Origin: Mesonia mobilis DSM 19841
GTDB lineage: Bacteria; Bacteroidota; Bacteroidia; Flavobacteriales; Flavobacteriaceae
Assembly (NCBI RefSeq): GCF_000423405.1
Contig: NZ_AUHX01000016.1
Span: 1-47,010, forward strand
Length of the DNA: 47,010 nt
Reading direction: 5' to 3'
A program made the translations under genes and the position numbers. Each line of letters begins with the position of its first letter. Positions within the stretch are counted from its first letter, which is position 1. This document shows, one piece after another, positions 1,277-16,964 of this stretch. Below the pieces are notes generated by a model. It made no database searches. It saw only the letters and a list, made by a program, of their open reading frames with translations, and had not been told where the DNA came from.

Positions 1277-1375
1277 TTATTTACAAAATATAGGTGCAGG
1301 AACAATCCAACTTAATATTGCCATTATTGCAATGCCAATAATAATTATAATTGCTGCGAATTTTCGAAAACTCAT
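1277..1375 (-). CDS. Putative 32-residue single-span membrane peptide
   Basis: A short open frame of 32 codons plus stop (TAA). It begins MSFRKFAAIIII with a basic start, then an uninterrupted hydrophobic stretch of about 20 residues (residues 7-26) and a short tail ending in FCK. It starts 11 nt after the stop of the preceding helical-protein gene on the same strand, so it could be the last gene of the glutamate dehydrogenase operon. The positive-inside start and clean membrane helix favour a real small membrane protein. With no homologue recognised and such a short frame, chance cannot be excluded. Confidence 0.45.
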   Translation of the reverse strand: MSFRKFAAIIIIIGIAIMAILSWIVPAPIFCK

Positions 1376-1386
1376 GGGTTTGCTTT

Positions 1387-1779
1387 TTATCGAATACTAT
1401 AGTTACTTAATCTTTTATAGAATTTCAGCTTTAGTTCATAAAAGCTTTTTTCAACACTTATAAATTCAGCTCGTTTCTTCTCATGTTTTTTGGCTAGCGT
1501 TAGATCATAATTTCCGTGACCATATTCCAGTTCCTTCAGTAGTTCTTGTTCATATTTACAAAAGGAGGCGAAGCTTATTGTGTTTTCTCGCCTTACTCTT
1601 TGTATCTTATTCGCTATTTCTGTTTCCTGTATTATTTGTTTCTGTATGCAGTTAATAGCATCTAACTCTTGATGATTTTCTTCTAGTTTGTTTTGCCAAT
1701 ATTGAAGTTCTATCAAATCTTTTTTTAGACTTAATATTTTGTTAGCACTCATTTGATCAAGAATAGAATTTGAAATCAT
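1387..1779 (-). CDS. Hypothetical helical (coiled-coil) protein, copy 2
   Basis: 130 residues, strongly charged, no signal peptide or membrane span; predicted mostly alpha-helical with heptad-like spacing. Its start overlaps the stop of the upstream gene by 4 nt (ATGA type), so the two are translationally coupled. It resembles that neighbour in layout: an N-terminal helix with EL.YW / EL.NW, a middle segment with an EQEL / EHEL motif, and a basic helix near the end with KKRAEF / KKEVLF. I infer an old tandem duplication. Function is unknown; its place behind glutamate dehydrogenase and a GreA/Rnk-like gene suggests a cytoplasmic accessory role in that operon. Confidence 0.75.
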   Translation of the reverse strand: MISNSILDQMSANKILSLKKDLIELQYWQNKLEENHQELDAINCIQKQIIQETEIANKIQRVRRENTISFASFCKYEQELLKELEYGHGNYDLTLAKKHEKKRAEFISVEKSFYELKLKFYKRLSNYSIR

Positions 1780-2177
1780 ACCATTTTTTGCGTGATTAGG
1801 TTAAACAATACTTCTTTTTTATTTCTGTAGGTAGCTGTGAATTGATCGTATTTGGCTCTATACAGTTCGTGTTCATGAATAAATAACCGATCACAAGCAA
1901 TGTCATCACATTCATTCCACATAGATAGGTTATTGTGATACTTTTTTAAGGTGGTCACCAATTTATCACTCTCTTGTTCTTTTCTGTCTAACTCTAATTT
2001 TAGGGAGTAAACATCTTTTTCTACATGGTTTTTTTTACAAAGTTTTTTTAAGTACCGGATCTCTTTTTCTATAAATAATAAATGTGTAATCCAATTTTCT
2101 AGTTCTTTGTTATTTCGTTTGTGAGAAACTAAATGTTCGTTATCATGTAAAAAAATTGACTTTGATTCACTGTTCAT
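1776..2177 (-). CDS. Hypothetical helical (coiled-coil) protein, copy 1
   Basis: 133 residues, soluble, Lys/Glu-rich and predicted helical. Segments with coiled-coil character lie at about residues 24-85 and 100-130. It starts 2 nt downstream of the GreA/Rnk-like gene and overlaps the next gene by 4 nt, so it sits inside a tight operon. It contains an isolated CDDIAC motif around residues 91-96. The downstream protein looks like a diverged paralogue. I do not recognise a named family. Confidence 0.75.
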   Translation of the reverse strand: MNSESKSIFLHDNEHLVSHKRNNKELENWITHLLFIEKEIRYLKKLCKKNHVEKDVYSLKLELDRKEQESDKLVTTLKKYHNNLSMWNECDDIACDRLFIHEHELYRAKYDQFTATYRNKKEVLFNLITQKMV

Positions 2178-2179
2178 CG

Positions 2180-2596
2180 TTATATGGGGATATTTGCTGT
2201 GGTATCTTGTTTGACTTCTTCTATGATATATTGCTCTTCTTTATCTTTAGAAAAGGTTAAATTTACGATGTCTCCTTTAGAATAACCTATGAGCGAGACC
2301 GGTAACGGACTTAGTATTGAAAATTTTTGCTTTTTAAGGTCTTCATCCATAGGGATTACAATTTGTAAAGGCATTACCGATGAGTTGCGAAGACATTTAA
2401 TCTTTACACTACTGTTTATTCTGATAATTTCTAAAGGCATTTCATTTTCCTCTACGATTATCGCATCTTCAATTTTATGCTTTAATTTTTCTAAAGCCAG
2501 TTTATGCGCTAACGTATGATCATATCCTGAAATGTTTAGGAGTCTCTTTATATAAACGTACTCCCTTTTTTCGATGATGTAGCTTCCATATTTCAT
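2180..2596 (-). CDS. GreA/GreB C-terminal-domain (Rnk-like) protein
   Basis: 138 residues. The C-terminal half (about residues 60-125) fits the FKBP-like C-terminal domain of GreA/GreB transcript-cleavage factors. The key stretch is SILSPLPVSLIGYSKGDIV, matching the family pattern SPLG-ALLG-GD-V. The N-terminal part is short and lacks the two long antiparallel helices that true Gre factors insert into the RNA polymerase channel. It is therefore closer to Rnk-type regulators, which bind RNA polymerase without cleavage activity. It starts 13 nt after glutamate dehydrogenase and is probably co-transcribed with it. Inference: it adjusts transcription under the same condition that induces the operon. 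Confidence 0.75.
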   Translation of the reverse strand: MKYGSYIIEKREYVYIKRLLNISGYDHTLAHKLALEKLKHKIEDAIIVEENEMPLEIIRINSSVKIKCLRNSSVMPLQIVIPMDEDLKKQKFSILSPLPVSLIGYSKGDIVNLTFSKDKEEQYIIEEVKQDTTANIPI

Positions 2597-2609
2597 AGCA
2601 TTTTAGGTA

Positions 2610-3911
2610 TTAAGGAAAAATCCCTCTTTGTATATAGGCCTTTTCAATTCTCTTAATAGCTATGCAATAAGCGGCTTTGCGCATATCGATACTTTCTTCT
2701 TGAGAATAGGTATATACTTTGTTGAACGATTCTTCTAATTTTTGATTAAGTTTTACTAGGGTTTTATCTAGTGACCAATGCTCTCCATTTCTATTTTGAA
2801 GCCATTCAAAATAACTGGCTATTACCCCTCCGGAATTGCAAAGAATATCTGGAATGATATCTACGCCATTAGCTATTAAAATTTTTTCAGCCTCATTGTC
2901 TATTGGACCATTTGCTCCTTCTGCGATAAGTTTAGCTTTGATGCCCGAAGCATTTTCCTGAGTGATTTGATTACCTAGAGCAGCCGGAATTATAATGTTA
3001 CAATTGATTGAGAAAAACTCTTCTTTCTCGATCATTTCTGCATGAGGAAAACCAGCTATTCGATTTTCGTTGATATAGTTATAATCGTTTAAAGAATTTA
3101 CCTCTATGCCGTTGGAATTGTATAAGGTAGCCGAAGCATCTTGCACCGCAATTAATACCGCACCTTCATCTTCTAAGAATTTTGAAGCCCAATACCCAAC
3201 GTTACCAAAACCTTGCACGATAAAGGTTTTATTTTTTAAAGTTTCATTTTGGTTTTGAAGGTATTTTTTAATGGTGATGTATACTCCGTAACCCGTGGCA
3301 CGATCTCTGCCTTCCAGACCGCCAATACCATCCGGTTTCCCTGTGACTACATGCTGATTATTAGAACGTTTTGCCGGTAGTTGGCTACTCATATAAGTAT
3401 CTGCAATCCAAGCCATCGTTTGGCTGTTGGTATTTACATCGGGAGCAGGAATATCGTGCTCCGGACCTATATTGTCTCCTAAAGCATAGGTGAATCTTCT
3501 AGTAATTCGTTCTAACTCTGCATTAGAATATTTATAGGGATCTAACTGAATTCCGCCTTTACCGCCGCCAAATGGTAATCCTGCTAAAGAGGTTTTCCAA
3601 GTCATCCACATAGCTAGGGCTCTAGCGGCATCTATATCTACTGTGGGATGATAACGAAGTCCTCCTTTGTAAGGCCCTAAAGCATTATTGTGTTGCACCC
3701 GGTAACCGGTAAATACCTCCACAGTTCCGTCATCCATTTTTACAGGAAAGTGTACTACAATTTCATTATTGGTGATTTTTAATATTTTCTGTATATCACG
3801 ATGCAGATCAATATATTCTGCCGCGCTATTAAATTGCTCTAATACATTCTGCATCATTCCCTGAGCTACTTTTTTTCCGGTTTTTTTATTATTTATTATC
3901 GTTGCATTCAT
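2610..3911 (-). CDS. gdh: Glu/Leu/Phe/Val dehydrogenase (glutamate dehydrogenase)
   Basis: 433 residues, the usual length of hexameric glutamate dehydrogenases. The enzyme interconverts glutamate with 2-oxoglutarate and ammonium using NAD(P). The substrate domain carries the catalytic lysine motif LPFGGGKGGI (about residues 112-121) and the active-site aspartate motif PAPDVNT (about 156-162). The dinucleotide domain begins at about residue 230 with VQGFGNVG. The size and motif style resemble the catabolic RocG/GudB group more than the longer E. coli GdhA type, but cofactor choice cannot be read with confidence. It starts 7 nt after a small Cys-rich gene and is followed closely by the GreA/Rnk-like gene. 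Two positions upstream on the same strand lies a sigma-54 activator pair that may control it. Confidence 0.93.
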   Translation of the reverse strand: MNATIINNKKTGKKVAQGMMQNVLEQFNSAAEYIDLHRDIQKILKITNNEIVVHFPVKMDDGTVEVFTGYRVQHNNALGPYKGGLRYHPTVDIDAARALAMWMTWKTSLAGLPFGGGKGGIQLDPYKYSNAELERITRRFTYALGDNIGPEHDIPAPDVNTNSQTMAWIADTYMSSQLPAKRSNNQHVVTGKPDGIGGLEGRDRATGYGVYITIKKYLQNQNETLKNKTFIVQGFGNVGYWASKFLEDEGAVLIAVQDASATLYNSNGIEVNSLNDYNYINENRIAGFPHAEMIEKEEFFSINCNIIIPAALGNQITQENASGIKAKLIAEGANGPIDNEAEKILIANGVDIIPDILCNSGGVIASYFEWLQNRNGEHWSLDKTLVKLNQKLEESFNKVYTYSQEESIDMRKAAYCIAIKRIEKAYIQRGIFP

Positions 3912-3918
3912 AAATTTT

Positions 3919-4047
3919 CTAGCTATTTTTTATTGTAGTTAAATCATATTCTTCACAAGACCATACTTGATCTTTTTGAATTGTAAGCACACAATAAGAT
4001 TGGTGTAAACAATTTTTGCATATAGAATTAATTGGGGCAGTCATCAT
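3919..4047 (-). CDS. Small four-cysteine protein (42 aa)
   Basis: An open frame of 42 codons between the regulator terminator and gdh, ending in TAG. The protein has four cysteines spaced C-x2-C-x5-C-x11-C (Cys10, 13, 19, 31), with the last in the context VWSCEEYD. I recall short proteins of this style (CxxC... followed by W-x-CEEY) in other bacteria, probably binding zinc or an iron-sulfur centre; the recollection is not checked. There are two consecutive ATG codons (4045-4047 and 4042-4044). The frame lies 7 nt before gdh on the same strand and directly behind the best sigma-54-like site, so it would be the first gene of the operon. Confidence 0.7.
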   Translation of the reverse strand: MMTAPINSICKNCLHQSYCVLTIQKDQVWSCEEYDLTTIKNS

Positions 4048-4072
4048 ACATTTTAAAGTTTGAAGACTAAGA

Positions 4073-4088
4073 TTCAATACGAATGCCA
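4073..4088 (-). promoter_or_regulatory. Candidate sigma-54 (-24/-12) promoter
   Basis: On the minus strand the sequence is TGGCATTCGTATTGAA, compared with the consensus TGGCAYnnnnnTTGCA. The spacing is exact and there is one mismatch, A for C in the -12 GC. The predicted start of transcription (near 4062) leaves a leader of about 15 nt before the Cys-rich gene. No TAnnTTTG element is visible in this gap. The adjacent sigma-54 activator makes the call more plausible; the -12 mismatch makes it less so. Confidence 0.4.
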
Positions 4089-4116
4089 GAAAGATTTAGT
4101 TTTTGCTAGAAATAAA

Positions 4117-4143
4117 ATAAGTCGCTGAAAAATAGCGACTTAT
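4117..4143 (-). terminator. Terminator behind the sigma-54 regulator
   Basis: Perfect 10-bp stem ATAAGTCGCT / AGCGACTTAT with a 7-nt loop. On the minus strand it is followed by TTATTT. It separates the two-component genes from the gdh operon. A second, weaker hairpin, GGGGTAAA (4178-4185) with TTTACCCC (4204-4211), lies between it and the stop codon. Confidence 0.75.
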
Positions 4144-4214
4144 TTGTTTAGGAATATTTGTTTGATTATTTTGAATCGGGGTAAAATGTATCGGCCGGGA
4201 AAATTTACCCCATT

Positions 4215-5525
4215 TTATTCGTTAAGCTTGAGTCTAATGGTTTTGCGATCGATCCCTAATATTTCCGCAGCTTTAGTTTTATTATTATTAGTAGTTCTCA
4301 AAACTTTTTCAATGTATTTTTTCTCCATTTCTTTTAAAGTAAGAAGAGTCTCTGCTTCAGGAAAATCAATTTTATATTTCAAATGATCTGGGAGGTGATC
4401 TATTTCAATGATTTTATCACAGAGGATTACTGCTCTTTGAATAATATTTTCGAGTTCTCTAATATTTCCCGGCCAATCGTATCTTTTTAAAACCTCTAAT
4501 GCTGCAGGGTTTATTTTTATAAATCTATCTTTATATTCTAATCCATATTTGAGTAAAAATTTATCGATAAGCATTGGGATGTCTTCTTTTCGATTACGCA
4601 GCGGAGGTACTTTAATTTCTACCACAACCAGTCGATAATATAAATCTTCTCTAAAGAGCTCTTTTCTGCTCATTTCTTTTAGGTTGCTATTGGTAGCTGC
4701 AATAATTCTTACATCGATTTTTTCTGGTTTTTGAGCACCTACTTTAATAACTTCTTTTTCTTGTAGTACTCTTAATAATCTTGTTTGAACACTAAGTGAA
4801 GCATTACCAATTTCATCTAAAAAAATAGTTCCGCCATTGGCTGCTTGAAAAAATCCATTTCTATTTTTTTCTGCTCCGGTAAAAGCTCCTTGGGTATAGC
4901 CAAAAAGTTCAGCTTCAAGCAAATTTTCGGGGATGGCTCCGCAATTTACTGCTATAAAAGGTTGTTTTGAAAATTTCCCTTCGTAGTGAATTGCTCGAGC
5001 GATGAGCTCTTTACCGGTACCACTTTCTCCTTCTACAAAGACGGTGGCTTTATTGTTCTTTACTCGTTCTATCACTTCAAAAATTTCTTTGATTGCTGAA
5101 GATTTTCCTATAATTTCTTTGGGAATTTCTATAGGTGCAGATTCATTAACGTTTGATTTATAATGAATAGATTTTTCGACCGCCTGTTTAAGTTCTTCTT
5201 TAGTAAAGGGTTTGGTAAGATAATCTGCAACCCCATTTTTAATAGCTTTTAAGGAGTCTTGAACAGAAGGGTAACCCGTTACGATGAGTATTGGAATGTA
5301 GGGATAATTTTCTCTTACAAAAGTCACTAGTTCAAACCCATCTATCTGTGGCATTTTTAAATCGGTTACAAGTAAATCTATTTTTGTATCTTTTAGTATG
5401 GTGACCGCTTCTTTTACAGATATTGCTTTAAATACGTGGAACCCCCACTTATTTAAATGCCGATGTAACAGTTCTAGGATCGAAAGATCATCATCTACGA
5501 CTAATATGTTTTCTTTTAATTTCAT
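4215..5525 (-). CDS. NtrC-family sigma-54-dependent response regulator
   Basis: 436 residues in the classic three-part NtrC layout. The receiver domain (about 5-118) has acidic residues Asp11-Asp13, phospho-acceptor Asp55 in VTDLKMP and a conserved lysine in TKPF. The AAA+ domain (about 140-375) has Walker A GESGTGKE, the GAFTGA loop that contacts sigma-54, Walker B GGTIFLDEI and a following arginine-rich region. A Fis-type helix-turn-helix ends the protein (NNNKTKAAEILGIDRKTIR). It activates transcription only from sigma-54 promoters after phosphorylation. The kinase gene ends 1 nt upstream, so the two form an operon. The nearest likely target is the gdh operon directly downstream. Confidence 0.95.
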   Translation of the reverse strand: MKLKENILVVDDDLSILELLHRHLNKWGFHVFKAISVKEAVTILKDTKIDLLVTDLKMPQIDGFELVTFVRENYPYIPILIVTGYPSVQDSLKAIKNGVADYLTKPFTKEELKQAVEKSIHYKSNVNESAPIEIPKEIIGKSSAIKEIFEVIERVKNNKATVFVEGESGTGKELIARAIHYEGKFSKQPFIAVNCGAIPENLLEAELFGYTQGAFTGAEKNRNGFFQAANGGTIFLDEIGNASLSVQTRLLRVLQEKEVIKVGAQKPEKIDVRIIAATNSNLKEMSRKELFREDLYYRLVVVEIKVPPLRNRKEDIPMLIDKFLLKYGLEYKDRFIKINPAALEVLKRYDWPGNIRELENIIQRAVILCDKIIEIDHLPDHLKYKIDFPEAETLLTLKEMEKKYIEKVLRTTNNNKTKAAEILGIDRKTIRLKLNE

Positions 5526-5526
5526 T

Positions 5527-6606
5527 TTAAAAAGTTGCCGGTAGCTTAATTTTAAATGTTGCTCCTTGATGAGGGTTGTTGTTCGCTGTAATTTTTCCTT
5601 TATGGCTAGCTATAATCCCATGTACCACACTTAGGCCTAGACCCGACCCTTCTCCTACCGGTTTAGTAGAAAAAAAAGGTTCAAAAAGTTTAGTTTTTGT
5701 ATTTTTATTAAATCCGATACCTTCATCAATTACCTTAATAATGATGTTTGTTTTGGTTTTGTAAGCCTTGATTTTTATGGTCCCATTTACTGGTGTAAAA
5801 TAAATGGCATTCATTACTAAATTAAAAATAACCTGAGTGATTTGTAAAACATCTGCTTTTAGTACTAAATGATCTTCTATGTCTAATACACAGTTTATTT
5901 CTTTTTTTCGAAGACTAGGTTTCAACAGGTCAATAGCACTTTTTAAGGTTGGTTTTATGTCTGCTATTTGCCATTCTTGTGGCATTTTACAAGAAAAAAA
6001 CATTAGTTTTTTTACTACTTCTCTTGAATAGATCGCGTTTTTAATAATTTTATCTAAGTCTGTATGAAAATCACTTTTCTCTGGAAAATTTTCTTGCAGT
6101 AATTCAGAAAATCCTAAAATATTGGTTAAAGGTGTATTTAATTCGTGTGCGATACCTGCGGTTATTTCTCCTAAGATGTTTAAACGATCTGTATGTTCAA
6201 TTTGTCTTCTTAAGGATTTTTCATTTTCTTTAATTTCTATACGCTCAAGAAGACTACTCATCTTTAAAGCTATACTATCGATTAATTGTTTTTCTTCCTT
6301 TAAAAATGAGCTTTTATTGCTAGTTAAGCTAGCTGTTAGTTCTCCTTTAGGTTGGTTGAATAATTGAATTTTGCTACTTATGGTAAGTTGATCATTTAAT
6401 ACTCCGGTTGCATAATTTACATCCTTATAAACCACTGAAATTTCTGTAGCACTTGGAAATTGAAAGGCTTTTTTAATACTTACTAAAATAGCTGTTAAAC
6501 TTGTTTCTAATGAGTCTATATCTGTATTGCTGATAATGGAAGAAACTTCATAGAGACAGGTAAGCTCTTTAATGCGTTCTCTTAATTTAAGTTCAGTAGT
6601 TTCCAT
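5527..6606 (-). CDS. Soluble sensor histidine kinase partner of the NtrC-type regulator
   Basis: About 359 residues, no membrane span. The N-terminal 140 residues look like a GAF-type sensor (CLYEVSSIISN at the start), then a HisKA domain with H-box ITAGIAHELNTPLTNILGFS, N-box NLVMNAIYFTP, G1 DEGIGF and G2 GSGLGLSVVHG. Autophosphorylation on the H-box histidine would feed Asp55 of the regulator 1 nt downstream. The frame can be extended to a TTG at 6613-6615, but the ATG at 6604-6606 (METTELKL) is the more likely start. A cytoplasmic sensor suggests an internal signal (metabolite or redox); nothing in the sequence says which. Confidence 0.92.
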   Translation of the reverse strand: METTELKLRERIKELTCLYEVSSIISNTDIDSLETSLTAILVSIKKAFQFPSATEISVVYKDVNYATGVLNDQLTISSKIQLFNQPKGELTASLTSNKSSFLKEEKQLIDSIALKMSSLLERIEIKENEKSLRRQIEHTDRLNILGEITAGIAHELNTPLTNILGFSELLQENFPEKSDFHTDLDKIIKNAIYSREVVKKLMFFSCKMPQEWQIADIKPTLKSAIDLLKPSLRKKEINCVLDIEDHLVLKADVLQITQVIFNLVMNAIYFTPVNGTIKIKAYKTKTNIIIKVIDEGIGFNKNTKTKLFEPFFSTKPVGEGSGLGLSVVHGIIASHKGKITANNNPHQGATFKIKLPATF

Positions 6607-6857: not shown

Positions 6858-7733
6858 TTATTTTTTGTGATAACTTTTTTTGAAGTCAATCGGGCTGGTT
6901 CCTGTTTTCTTCTTAAAATATCTAGAAAAGTACGCGTAGTCTTCAAAACCTAAAGTTTCAGCAATCCTCGCCAAAGGATTTTGCGAATGCACGATTAATC
7001 TTTTAGCCTCTAAAATAACCCGTTCTGCAATCAATTGGTGAGTGGTTTTGTTGAGTGTTTCTTTGGTTACTCTATTTAGGTGTTTTGTAGTGATGTTGAG
7101 TAAACCCGCATAATATTTAGGAAGTTTCTCTTGGTGATAATATTCTTCTATATATTGTTCGAGCTGTTCTAGAATTTTTAGATAATTTACACTTGCATAG
7201 TCTGCTAAGTTAAGCGTTGAAGTGTAGGCTCTAGTTAAGATAATGTAAATATCGTTGATACTATTGACCATTTTTAAATTTCTAAAGGCTTGCGTTTCAT
7301 GATACTCTTGTAATAGTTCTCGAAACTTATTTTCAATACCTTTTAATGAATCAGTAAGTTCTAGTACAGGTGGGTTTTGGTAGGAGTAATAAAAAGGAAA
7401 ATTACTCAATTGATGCGTGAGGTAGTACATTTCGTAAAATTCTTTTGAATGAAAAAAAATGAATCCGTTTGGAGGTGTTTTAAATTTCCAGAAATGTGTT
7501 TGTCCAGGTTTTAGAAAAAATACTTTTCCGGGAGAAATAGAATAGCTTTTAAAATCAATTTCGTGCACACCGCTCCCTTTCGTGAAGATGACACATAAAT
7601 AGAAATTATGACTATGAGGAGTACTGGTTAAATGCTTATTTATTTTAATGTGATTCGCAAACGAGTTCACATATACCTGATGCACTTCTTTTGAGGATTG
7701 AAATTGCTTGATATTTAAAACGGGAATCTTCAT
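6858..7733 (-). CDS. AraC-family transcriptional regulator
   Basis: 291 residues. The N-terminal part (about 35-105) reads as a cupin-like ligand-sensing domain (TPHSHNFYLCVIF, then SPGKVFFLKPGQTHFW). The C-terminal 100 residues form the double helix-turn-helix of AraC proteins, with the hallmark ETLGFEDYAYFSRYFKKKTG and TSPIDFKK. It is expected to be a cytoplasmic DNA-binding activator or repressor responding to a small molecule. It is divergent from the DUF983 gene; the shared 90-bp gap probably holds both promoters. Targets are unknown. Confidence 0.93.
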   Translation of the reverse strand: MKIPVLNIKQFQSSKEVHQVYVNSFANHIKINKHLTSTPHSHNFYLCVIFTKGSGVHEIDFKSYSISPGKVFFLKPGQTHFWKFKTPPNGFIFFHSKEFYEMYYLTHQLSNFPFYYSYQNPPVLELTDSLKGIENKFRELLQEYHETQAFRNLKMVNSINDIYIILTRAYTSTLNLADYASVNYLKILEQLEQYIEEYYHQEKLPKYYAGLLNITTKHLNRVTKETLNKTTHQLIAERVILEAKRLIVHSQNPLARIAETLGFEDYAYFSRYFKKKTGTSPIDFKKSYHKK

Positions 7734-8606: not shown

Positions 8607-8783
8607 ATGAAAGAACTTATTGAAAACATCAAAACTGAATTCGAATCTTTTGATAACGATGCTCAAGCACAATTAGAAAGCGGTAACAAAGCTGCAGGAA
8701 CTAGAGCAAGAAAATCTTCTTTAGCTTTAGAAAAGCTTTTAAAAGAATTTCGTAAAGTTTCGATTGCAGAATCGAAGAAATAA
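8607..8783 (+). CDS. Histone H1-like small basic protein (58 aa)
   Basis: 58 residues ending in TAA. An acidic N-terminal helix (KELIENIKTEFESF) is followed by GNKAAGTRARKSS and a basic helical tail (LEKLLKEFRKVS). The segment KAAGTRARK is the hallmark of the short Bacteroidota proteins annotated as histone H1 or Hc1-like, thought to bind and compact DNA. It is a single-gene unit with its own strong terminator 7 nt after the stop. Confidence 0.85.
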   Translation: MKELIENIKTEFESFDNDAQAQLESGNKAAGTRARKSSLALEKLLKEFRKVSIAESKK

Positions 8784-12449: not shown

Positions 12450-12476
12450 AAGTTGCACTAAGAAAAATTGCATTTT

Positions 12477-15400
12477 ATGCGCCTTCAAAACGCTACACAA
12501 AATAACCTTAAAAATATTTCTTTAACACTTCCTGAAAACCAATTAATTGTGGTTACGGGGCTTTCCGGTTCGGGCAAGTCTTCGCTGGCGATGGGCACGA
12601 TCGCTAACGAAGGTTATCGTTATTTTTTAGAAAGTTTACCGGCTTATTATCAACAAAACAGTATCGCTATTCCTACGGCAGAAGTCGATGCGATTAGCGA
12701 TTTGCCTCCGGTAGTGAAGGTAGAACAATCTAAACGCTTTCAATCCATCAAAGCTACTTTTGGTACGTTGTCTGAACTCGCCCCTATTTTTAGAGTTTTA
12801 TTTGCGCGTTATGCCGGTAAAGAGAAGATGAGTAGATCGTTATTTTCTTTTAACCATCCCAAAGGGGCGTGTGCCCAATGTCGTGGGATTGGAGAGGAAG
12901 AATATATTGATATCAACAAACTGATCGGTGATGAAAATAAAACCCTGCGTGAAGGTGCGATTGTCACCACTTTACCTAACGGTTATATTGTCTATTCGCA
13001 AGTCACCGTTGAAGAGCTCAATAAAGTTTGCCAAGCGCACGGTTTTCACGTCGATATGCCTTGGAAAGACTTAAACAAAGAACAAAAAAATGTAATTCTC
13101 TACGGCAGTGATCGCCTTCAGGTGTTTTATGGCAAACACAGTATTGAATCGCGTTTGCGTTGGCAAGGCTTTAAGGCCAAACCCCGAGAAGAAGGCTATT
13201 ACAAAGGTGTAATGCCCATTATGGAAAACATTCTTCGACTCGATCGTAACAAAAGTATTTTGCGTTTTGTGAGTTCACGAACCTGTCCCAACTGTGGGGG
13301 AGCCAGAATTAAACCGGAACATTTAGCATTTCAGTGGCACGGATTAAATTTTCAAGAATGGATGCAACTTCCGTTAACCGAACTGTATGAGCGCTTGCAA
13401 ACGTTAGAACTTTCAGCAGGCGAACAGGTTTTGGTCGATAAAATGAATACCCAATTGTTCGATTTTATTCGATTGGGAATGGAGCATTACCGTTTAGCTA
13501 CGCCGAGTACTGAGATTTCTTCGGGCGACGGCCAGCGCATCAAACTCATCAAGCAAGTGAACAGTAGCTTGCAAGGTATTTTATATGTATTTGACGAACC
13601 GTCGATCGGACTTTCAGAAGCTTATCAAAAACATCTCCTTCATATTTTACGCCGACTCATCCGCAACGGAAATACCGTGATGGTGGTCGAGCACGATCTC
13701 GAATTTATTCGATCGGCAGATTGGGTGGTCGAGTTAGGTCCGGGAGCGGGAGTTGAAGGCGGCGAAGTCTTGTTTAATGGTCAATTAAAAGATTTTTTAG
13801 CTGCGGAAGAAATCACTACTCCAACGAAAAAAGCTTTTGATCGTGATCGTTTGACTGTTGAAAAAGTTAAAGCGGTACAGCTAAAAGATTTTCAACCTCA
13901 GGTGGAAGGTTTGCATGTGATCAGTAAAAAAACGAAAGCGGTTACCGAGAAAATAGTTTCTTTTTGTACGAACAATGATTTTCAATTGCATCAGGTCGAC
14001 GATCAACCCATTGGGAAAACTCCCCGAAGCAATCCTGCGACTTATACCGGTTTGGCTGATAAGATTCGGGATTTGCTAGCCAAAACTACTGCTGCCAAAG
14101 AAGCGAAACTCACAAAAAGTGCTTTTTCTTTTAATAATAAAGCCGGGCGATGCCCGCATTGTGAAGGCGCCGGTGTGATCACTTTATCGATGAGTATGCT
14201 GGGAACGGTGAATCAAACTTGTCCGCATTGTTTAGGAAAACGCTTTCAGCCTGAAGTCTTAGCAGTCACTTGGAACCAAAAAAACATTGCCGATATTTAT
14301 GAGCTGAGCATCGATGAAGCGCTCGATTTCTTTTCCGAAGAAAAAAAATTAGCAGCCATTTTATCGTTAATGCATCAATTGGGCTTGGGTTACCTCAAGC
14401 TCGGGCAAGCCTCGAACACCTTGTCGGGAGGAGAAGCACAGCGTATTAAACTCACAAAGCATTTTGCCAAATCGGCTAAGAAAACCTTGTTGTGGTTAGA
14501 AGAACCCAGTATTGGTTTGCATCAGCAAAATGTAGCCCAATTACTGGCAGCCTTGCAGCAATTAAAAGCCAAAACAGCCGGGATTATTTGTGTGGAGAAT
14601 CATCAACTTTTTCAGCAAGCGGCCGATGTTTGGCTCAATAATGCTGAAGTGATTTCGTATCAAGAACCAACCCTTCCTTCGGTTCAGCGGCAAGATGTCA
14701 TTTCGGTAAGAGGAGCGCGAACCCATGCTCTGAAAGATTTGAATGTTGAATTTCCGAAGCAAAAATTATCGGTGGTGACCGGTATTTCAGGTTCAGGTAA
14801 ATCGTCATTGGTGATCGATACCTTACACGGTTACGGTTTGCAAGAAATGACCAAGCAATTTTCAAGTTACGAGCAATCTCGTGTTGGTGTTAATTTTCAG
14901 CTAGAAGTGGAACATATTGAAGGTTTAACGCCCAGTATTTGCATTAGCCGAAAAGAGAAAAATTTTACCGAACGCTCCGATCTTGCTAAGCAAACCGATA
15001 TCGATAAAAGTTTACGTTTTGCCTTTTCGAGAAAAGCACAATATGAAGGAAAAGATTGGACGGCGAGTCACTTTTCTAATCAGCACGAATTAGGAAAATG
15101 TGTGGTTTGCGATGGCTTGGGAGAAGAGCAATTGCCCGACCCGCAAAAAGTGGTGATCGATGCGCAGAAAAGTATAGCAGAAGGTGTTTTTACCCATAAT
15201 AAAGCGCTGGCGTATTATGGGCAACCTGATAGTCAATATATGGCGGTGTTGAAGGAAGTAGGGAAGGCGAATGCTTTCGATTTGCAAACGCCTTTTGAAG
15301 ACTTAACGCCTGCGCAACAAGAAATCATTTTCAACGGAATTCCCGATAAAAAGTGGAAAGCTACTTGGGAGTTTAAAACCAAAACCCGAACCGGAACCCA

Positions 15401-16964
15401 AGAACTGCAGATGGTTTGGGAAGGATTGTTTACCTATTTGCGTGATGAATATCTAAAAACGCGAAAGAACAAACGCATAAAAGCTTTGCAGGCTTTACTT
15501 TCTGCACAAACTTGTAGTCATTGTCAAGGTAGCGGCTTAAAGCCGGAGCGATTAGCCATTGAAATTGGTAGCAAGTCGATGCACGATTTAAAATCGATGA
15601 ATTTTGAAGAATTTGCTGAATTTTTAAATGAAACTTCTTCATTTTCCAAAATCGATCGAGATCTAGTGAAGCGTTTAGCCGAACATTTACAAACGACACT
15701 TTTACGCGCGCAGCAATTACATATCGATTATTTACAGTTGAACCGAAAATCGAAAACACTAAGTGGGGGTGAACAGCAACGCGTCGCATTGATCAAGCAA
15801 TTAAATAGTCCGTTGCAAGGCATCACCTATTTGTTAGATGAACCTTCGGCCGGTTTATCGCAAGCTAATATTCCCGATTTAATTCGGTTGTTGAAAGAAT
15901 TGGTAACGAAAGGGAATACGGTGATCGTGATCGAGCATCATAAAGATATTATCTTGGCGGCCGATCGCTTGTACGAGATTGGCCCCAAAGCCGGAAGTTT
16001 AGGTGGTGAGTTGATGTTTGAAGGGAGTCCGCAAGCATATTTGAAAGCCGAACATTGTCATCCATTTTTGAAACAAGTTCCCGAGGCGATTCAGCTTCAA
16101 CCGGGAACGAAACAAATTCAGCTTCAGCAATTAGAAAAACACAGTTTAAAGAAAGCAAATTTAGCCATTCCTGTGGGCGGAATTACCGCCATTTCCGGAA
16201 AATCGGGCGTAGGAAAAACCACGTTGGTCAAAGAAATTTTAATTCCCAGTATGGAACGAGGAAAACCGGTGAATTGTGCGCAAATTGAATTTCCTACTAG
16301 TTATGCCGGCGTTGATTATTTTGAACCTAAAAAATTACGCGCGCATCACAAAACCTTGTTGGTCGATTATTTAGATCTCCTGAAAGTAATCACCAAAGTA
16401 TTTGCTGATCACAGCGAACAACCGTCTCGCTATTTTTCTTATAAAACCAAGAGCAGCCAATGCCCGAACTGTAAAGGCAAAGGATTTGTAGAAACCAGTT
16501 TAGATGTGGTGGCTAATGCTGTGGAAGTTTGTGAAGTTTGCGAAGGCAAGCGCTATCAAGCGGAAGTTTTGGCTGTGAAGGTCGAAGCGAAAAGTATTGC
16601 CGATGTTCTTGCGTTTAGCATTTCAGCATTAAAAGATTGGCTGCAAAACTTTGCTGTAAAATCTACTACAGAAAAATTCCTGCAGCAGCTCACCGATATT
16701 GGTTTAGGACATTTAGCGATCGATCAAGCGGTTACTTCACTTTCTTCCGGAGAAAAACAGCGTTTGTTATTGCTAAATTGGCTTCAGCAACCTGAAGAAA
16801 ATCAATTGTATATTTTAGATGAACCCAGTACCGGATTGCATTATGCCGATATTGATTTGTTGTTCAGTATTCTTCAGCAACTCAGTACCACTAATGATTT
16901 GCTAGTGATCGATCACAATCCTTATTTGTTAGAAAAAATAGGTGTTGGAATGATCTTGGTATAA
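12477..16964 (+). CDS. Tandem-fused UvrA-like protein with four nucleotide-binding domains
   Basis: About 1495 residues; ordinary UvrA is about 940. The order of motifs shows two UvrA-like units in one chain. Unit 1: Walker [10 protein letters not shown], Zn motif CAQC, CPNC, degenerate signature SSGDGQR (13511-13546), Walker B YVFDEPS; then a second half with CPHC...CPHC, signature LSGGEAQR and WLEEPS but no P-loop (about 13900-13955 reads [12 protein letters not shown]). Unit 2: Walker [10 protein letters not shown], signature [14 protein letters not shown]; then Walker [14 protein letters not shown]...CEVC, signature [28 protein letters not shown] follows shortly after the first P-loop region, so the UvrB-binding domain is missing. 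It therefore resembles UvrA2/drug-resistance UvrA proteins rather than the repair UvrA. Probable role: recognition of DNA lesions or DNA-bound drugs. ATG at 12477 is preferred over TTG at 12468. Confidence 0.93.

Follow-up and report, generated by a model that had tools for sequence, protein, structure and literature searches.

What does a sigma-54-type two-component system control, and to what end, when it lies beside packed genes for glutamate dehydrogenase (GDH), an Rnk-like factor, and small helical proteins? The question is raised by a locus of Mesonia mobilis DSM 19841 (GCF_000423405.1, contig NZ_AUHX01000016.1), within the 47,010-nucleotide (nt) stretch of DNA analyzed here, which we call the window. 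A soluble sensor histidine kinase and an NtrC-type response regulator are followed by genes for a 42-residue Cys4 mini-protein, GDH, the Rnk-like factor, two helical proteins that we label HelA and HelB, and a 32-residue hydrophobic open reading frame (ORF). All eight ORFs lie on the minus strand, according to both the ORF listing and the sequence. Dedicated two-component and sigma-54 control of the operon is well supported by sequence comparison, and we favor, with a probability of about 0.62, the reading that these genes form a sigma-54-dependent survival regulon around Rnk and GDH.

From the kinase through HelB, the successive intergenic gaps are 1, 137, 7, 13, 2, and −4 nt, and the hydrophobic ORF begins 11 nt past helB; the six genes below the regulator are spaced by at most 13 nt or overlap. 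An earlier sequence-only reading of this DNA had described a soluble kinase, an NtrC-type regulator, and six packed genes on one strand, a description borne out by the ORFs, the Pfam domains, and the gaps. It had also named lack of conserved gene order in relatives as grounds for abandoning its proposal. We made this comparison in 149 family genomes (G numbers denote genomes and L numbers loci), and the order is conserved. A kinase orthologue, defined as a match at E ≤ 1e−90 to a profile built from HelA-bearing loci, was found in 33 of the 149 genomes, about a fifth. When the count is limited to genes of the same strand within the fetched stretches, these 33 loci hold NtrC (33), Rnk (30), GDH (29), the Cys protein (25), HelA (23), and HelB (12). 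A single-sequence search with HelA gave 42 matches, found in 38 of the 149 genomes; 32 stretches were fetched and, with one named locus, 33 neighborhoods were examined, 20 of which hold the kinase, the regulator, and operon genes together.

Sequence comparison of these loci also reveals a shared enhancer-promoter architecture. A palindrome, TGGGTAATTnTnCCCCAGT, lies behind the regulator gene at a fixed distance from a −24/−12 sigma-54 box. Expectation-maximization on 20 upstream regions, with the window excluded, returned the palindrome tTGGGTAATTtTtCCCCAGT as the upstream activating sequence (UAS). It stands 85 to 89 nt upstream of the −24 element in 15 of the 20 loci, 105 to 106 nt in 4, and 117 nt in 1 (104 nt in the window); by eye, the two preferred distances correspond to two tandem copies. 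The −24/−12 boxes of 21 loci were scored: at each of 15 loci, no more than 5 of 500 shuffles did as well as the real sequence, compared with 9 for the window and 31 for L036. The 21 loci averaged 11.88; the shuffled mean was 9.38 and never exceeded 9.99. UAS and box were then scored jointly. Among the held-out kinase loci that have the operon downstream, all 11 outscored every one of 100 shuffles, 10 clearly and G100/L195 narrowly (12.9 versus a shuffle maximum of 12.6). Counting the 20 kinase loci that trained the motif, 29 of the 33 reach a joint score of at least 18 at the expected place. The misses are G030 (16.4), G100 (12.9), G076, where the UAS lies at 117 nt and thus beyond the scanned distances, and G011, where the operon is elsewhere. 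Across 1,455,700 bases (both strands counted), 48 joint matches of at least 18, corresponding to 36 distinct sites, were found versus none in the reversed control (66 versus 6 at a threshold of 16). Fifteen other loci gave two joint matches (none in the control), one at helA of G001 and a poor one in G127, which lacks the kinase.

The site also moves with the genes. The G011 operon, which is unlinked and on a separate contig (L054), carries one scoring 25.4; helA-usp-mscS of G001, likewise on another contig (L047), carries one scoring 22.3; and the inverted HelB copy of G100, on the opposite strand, has one of its own (19.1). No site above background was found in the kinase-less genomes G093 and G053 (9.6 and 8.7, scores equaled or exceeded by 20 and 25 of 100 shuffles). 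Single genomes carry an extra UAS and box: before mscS in G101, before a second unit in G144, and, with a weak sigma-54-like box, before nhaA in G029. About 60 nt separate this NhaA antiporter gene (L040:14724-16031) from the kinase gene downstream of it, and the UAS of the antiporter gene might reflect autoregulation there. A relaxed UAS search of 52 genomes gave 247 matches versus 190 in the control for the 33 kinase genomes and 94 versus 127 for the other 19, a small excess with no clear wider regulon. Among the five exact UAS matches listed, four are at the operon and one is in the kinase-less G019.

In the window, all the control elements are on the minus strand. The distal UAS palindrome, TGGGGTAAATTTTCCCGGCC (4193-4212), scores 14.7 bits with the matrix trained without the window; the −24 box follows 104 nt downstream. 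A half-conserved proximal copy, CCGATACATTTTACCCCGAT (4175-4194), was recognized by eye, in register with the proximal copy of the relatives. Next comes the terminator seen in the sequence-only reading, which we confirm between UAS and promoter as a 12-pair stem with a loop of 7 and a T-rich tail (4115-4145); terminator-like sites are not enriched in this region (4 versus 3.2 in shuffles). The candidate −24/−12 promoter, TGGCATTCGTATTGA (4074-4088), has a score reached by 9 of 500 shuffles, and jointly with the UAS by none of 100. The pattern TGGCAYN5TTGM has one match in the window, this box, and 27 of 100 window shuffles contain one somewhere. The box spacing and the upstream palindrome are those of a predicted sigma-54 promoter with UAS, with a deviation at −12. 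The exact UAS core, GGGTAANTTTNCCC, a pattern picked after inspection of the window, occurs once in the 3.2-Mb genome, and one-mismatch matches are near the control (16, two of them the window site, versus 12).

Several observations weigh against a dedicated sigma-54 regulon. In the window, the −12 position is A and not C, the UAS has a lower score than any of the 20 training loci (yet a higher one than 3 of the 11 held-out loci), and a vegetative-like −35/−10 match (TTGAAT/TAAAAT, 9/12, at 4077-4050) overlaps the −12 region. The promoter pattern is not enriched across the genome (17 matches versus 24 in the control), and we therefore claim no wider regulon for the Mesonia genome. Among the relatives, 4 of the 21 loci (L039, L043, L048, and L049) were not above shuffles in the promoter-only test, because an incorrect or absent Cys start had truncated the scanned stretch; boxes for these four were then chosen by eye. 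A joint match of 18.8 with a poor box lies at L181:10344 in the kinase-less G127, probably by chance. MscS and NhaA are backed as targets by single-genome cases, the latter with a weak box. Finally, G100 and G116 have no Rnk at the locus, and G002, G084, and G087 keep the kinase, the regulator, Rnk, and a Hel protein with no adjacent GDH, so that no single effector is obligatory.

The kinase (5527-6606 from an ATG start, or to 6615 if the listed TTG is used) has HisKA and HATPase_c domains in Pfam. Its residues 1 to 145 model as a GAF-fold domain (AlphaFold2; predicted local distance difference test [pLDDT], 91; best fold match, GAF 4g3k, E = 7e−5); no PAS domain was matched there. C20, H157, and C209 are identical in all 33 orthologues. 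The regulator (4215-5525; Response_reg, Sigma54_activat, and HTH_8) has the makeup of an NtrC-family sigma-54 activator: a receiver with a phospho-acceptor Asp, an AAA+ domain with GAFTGA, and a Fis-type helix-turn-helix. D55 is kept in 33 of 33 orthologues and GAFTGA in 30 of 33. Its best NCBIfam match is the NtrC (NR[I]) equivalog TIGR01818, at 418.5 bits versus a cutoff of 558.6, and it falls under the cutoff of all 25 models listed, of the 130 matched. Of the 13 PF00158 matches in the genome, four are strong sigma-54 activators, so that this regulator is one of a small set; rpoN, whose presence the sequence-only reading had put forward as a check, is there too (one PF00309 match). An AraC-type regulator gene (6858-7733) lies upstream of the kinase, and another AraC-type gene is found 136 nt past helB in G101.

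The Rnk-like factor (2180-2596; PF01272, 43.8 bits) gives profile matches to 2pn0 and to Rnk 3bmb (6e−18). PF01272 is present in all 23 Rnk-like proteins examined, and none of these has the N-terminal Gre family at E ≤ 0.01, as expected of the Rnk architecture; the protein is under the PRK05753 cutoff (56.9 versus 109 bits). A GreA transcript cleavage factor was considered and rejected (TIGR01462, 48.3 bits versus a cutoff of 139, with the match starting at model position 58). Some match to the Rnk search was found in 148 of the 149 genomes, mostly GreA-like near 50 bits, and Rnk-type matches of at least 96 bits in 34, among the matches listed; Rnk-type genes also occur outside such operons (L177, L181, and L182), and some loci (G001, G075, and G129) carry a second Rnk ahead of the Cys protein. 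According to passages of PMC4598747, Escherichia coli Rnk binds RNA polymerase in competition with Gre and DksA, and its deletion has no phenotype under normal growth; passages there and in the review PMC8632087 state the binding but describe what Rnk does, and how it affects transcription, as uncharacterized. The same review, in part, reports Rnk to be upregulated in anoxia-induced growth arrest of Pseudomonas aeruginosa, and the portion of PMC8087004 that names rnk does so only as a changed gene. Coupling of the operon to transcription via Rnk is plausible.

The GDH (2610-3911) has both ELFV_dehydrog (PF00208) and ELFV_dehydrog_N (PF02812) over cutoff, as a Glu/Leu/Phe/Val dehydrogenase should, and its nearest PDB sequences include 1b3b and 1gtm; the genome has further PF00208 members. 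Sigma-54 control of GDH appears among the predicted regulons of Bacillota in passages of PMC12316311. The Cys4 mini-protein (3919-4047; CxxCx5Cx11C) has C10, C13, C19, and C31 invariant in the 20 aligned sequences, and its profile matched nothing convincing among PDB sequences and Pfam. The 32-residue hydrophobic ORF (1277-1375) is not conserved. Of the 32 other kinase loci, only G144 has a comparable hydrophobic ORF (ATG start, 18 to 70 residues, at most 330 nt past the last operon gene), and its sequence differs; the earlier assignment of a membrane peptide to the operon was dropped; judging from this comparison, the ORF is probably outside the regulon. No Pfam family was over cutoff for this ORF, the Cys protein, HelA, or HelB. 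Eight of the 33 loci have a Usp-like gene behind helB or Rnk: 7 to 13 nt past HelB in G002, G039, G073, G074, G076, and G084, 150 nt past HelB in G029, and 94 nt past Rnk in G075. Pfam Usp was matched at E ≤ 0.001 in seven of these eight genes and over cutoff in six.

HelA (1776-2177) is predicted by AlphaFold2 to be a three-helix coiled coil (pLDDT, 87; predicted template modeling score, 0.78; helices at residues 14 to 49, 54 to 89, and 93 to 132) with a turn of the EC(D/E)DxxCD type. E89, C90, and C95 are identical in all 26 sequences compared and, in the model, sit where the chain turns from helix 2 to helix 3. HelB (1387-1779) is its paralogue without the Cys pair: the relatedness of the two helical proteins noticed in the sequence-only reading is seen at the profile level (hhalign, 98.3%, E = 1e−14), where pairwise BLAST fails (best E = 0.12). 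Fold searches with HelA gave no match at E ≤ 0.001 and mostly generic helical proteins, and its profile found nothing convincing among PDB sequences and Pfam. By these sequence comparisons, HelA and HelB are a coiled-coil family with no named family convincingly matched.

In the phylum, few genomes have a HelA-profile match (13 of 395, with 11 in the same family), and several of these matches may be paralogues from stress islands; the single-sequence contig search found one paralogue locus. Such paralogues are found in islands with Usp, Hsp20, a beta-CASP nuclease, and a receiver-Crp regulator. The L061 island holds all of these and an ATP-cone/Mrr protein, L064 resembles it (two of its proteins were scanned), and the L057 island holds a baeRF protein and MscS. 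Gre and DksA insert coiled-coil tips into RNA polymerase. A highly speculative and improbable idea is that HelA and HelB are new transcription or translation arrest factors acting with Rnk, the acidic two-Cys tip (ECDDxxCD) entering or capping RNA polymerase under redox or metal control aided by the Cys4 protein; if true, one sigma-54 switch would deploy a complete polymerase-silencing kit. Zinc binding by the HelA tip with H11 and H103 was considered as an idea only.

In the reading that we favor, the soluble GAF-type kinase would phosphorylate the NtrC-type activator, which would bind the bipartite palindromic enhancer right behind its own gene and open the sigma-54 promoter about 85 to 105 nt downstream. 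This would switch on one operon for the Cys protein, GDH, Rnk, HelA, and HelB, with Usp too in some relatives. GDH would then shift glutamate/2-oxoglutarate and NAD(P)H, Rnk would replace Gre-type factors on RNA polymerase, and HelA and HelB would work as stress coiled-coil proteins. Phosphotransfer, DNA binding, expression, the roles of the products, the signal, and the part played in stress or growth arrest are all what we infer. Usp, MscS, and NhaA are genes that point to stress. We propose a survival role because these three are candidate co-regulated genes in relatives, because HelA paralogues sit in the Usp/Hsp20/beta-CASP/receiver-Crp islands, and because Rnk rises in anoxia-induced growth arrest (PMC8632087).

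The same genes could be read as an NtrBC-like nitrogen-status system, in which GDH is controlled for the ammonia/glutamate balance, with Rnk and the helical proteins as passengers. TIGR01818 as the best match of an NtrC-like activator, GDH at 29 of the 33 kinase loci, an alanine dehydrogenase/PNT-family gene after helA in G027, and the sigma-54 control of GDH in Bacillota (passages of PMC12316311) agree with this. Nevertheless, the NtrC equivalog cutoff is missed, the kinase N terminus models as GAF with no PAS match, the three loci with Rnk and Hel proteins and no adjacent GDH are poorly explained, and the targets that moved (HelA-Usp-MscS and HelB) include no nitrogen genes. We consider this reading unlikely. 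The sequence-only reading had envisaged a dedicated response changing nitrogen/carbon flow and transcription together. Its dedicated control agrees with the conserved order and the fixed spacing of enhancer and −24/−12 box, while its nitrogen/carbon purpose is not specifically supported, given the GDH-less loci, the missed NtrC cutoff, and the candidate Usp, MscS, and NhaA members in relatives.

That GDH adjusts the glutamate pool in an osmotic or ionic stress response whose regulon includes MscS and NhaA is a possibility we would take somewhat more seriously, although we would not bet on it. A UAS with a sigma-54-like box precedes MscS in G101, NhaA in G029, and HelA-Usp-MscS in G001, but these are single-genome cases, and no such gene was identified next to the system in the window. 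Quite unlikely is that an ordinary vegetative promoter mainly drives the operon in this genome, where the sigma-54 site would be vestigial. The A at −12, the weak UAS, the sigma-70-like match, and the same-genus G053, which has GDH-HelA with neither kinase nor site, would fit such a loss. Against this, the joint site beats 100 of 100 shuffles, the regulator and kinase retain their key residues, and sigma-70-like sites are no commoner than in shuffles (22 versus 23.0, in a scan that does not cover Bacteroidota-type promoters).

We found no description of this operon in literature searches, as judged from titles, abstract openings, and some passages, and known systems resemble it in part. NtrC, AtoC, and ZraR systems share the receiver-AAA+-Fis regulator with GAFTGA, the neighboring kinase, and palindromic sites before −24/−12, whereas here the kinase is soluble with a GAF fold, the target operon is Cys-GDH-Rnk-Hel, and the listed NCBIfam cutoffs are missed. 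E. coli Rnk has the same GreA_GreB C-terminal domain, a similar size, and the profile match to 3bmb, but the factor described here misses the PRK05753 cutoff, and its operon, of the sigma-54 type, also encodes HelA/HelB and GDH. The Bacillota also have GDH assigned to sigma-54, in another phylum and with no mention of Rnk or Hel proteins in the passages of PMC12316311 at hand. The L061 island, from the same family, shares a HelA paralogue and Usp, but its fetched stretch has no GDH or Rnk match and its regulator is of the receiver-Crp class.

Elsewhere in the window, three features were noted by eye: a 1,498-residue ORF (12468-16964) with the look of a UvrA-type ABC protein, unusually long, with duplicated halves in one chain; a lysine-rich, histone H1-like ORF of 58 residues (8607-8783); and, at the contig end (1-1270), an intergenic stretch with degenerate ACAGT/CAGTAG-type repeats and no convincing genes.

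For the biology of these bacteria, a survival regulon of this kind would mean that one mappable enhancer and one kinase provide a switch to turn Rnk on or off and so to probe its function. A new coiled-coil family, HelA/HelB, would be present both in a sigma-54-type regulon and in receiver-Crp stress islands, and Bacteroidota would have a testable enhancer code for one activator.

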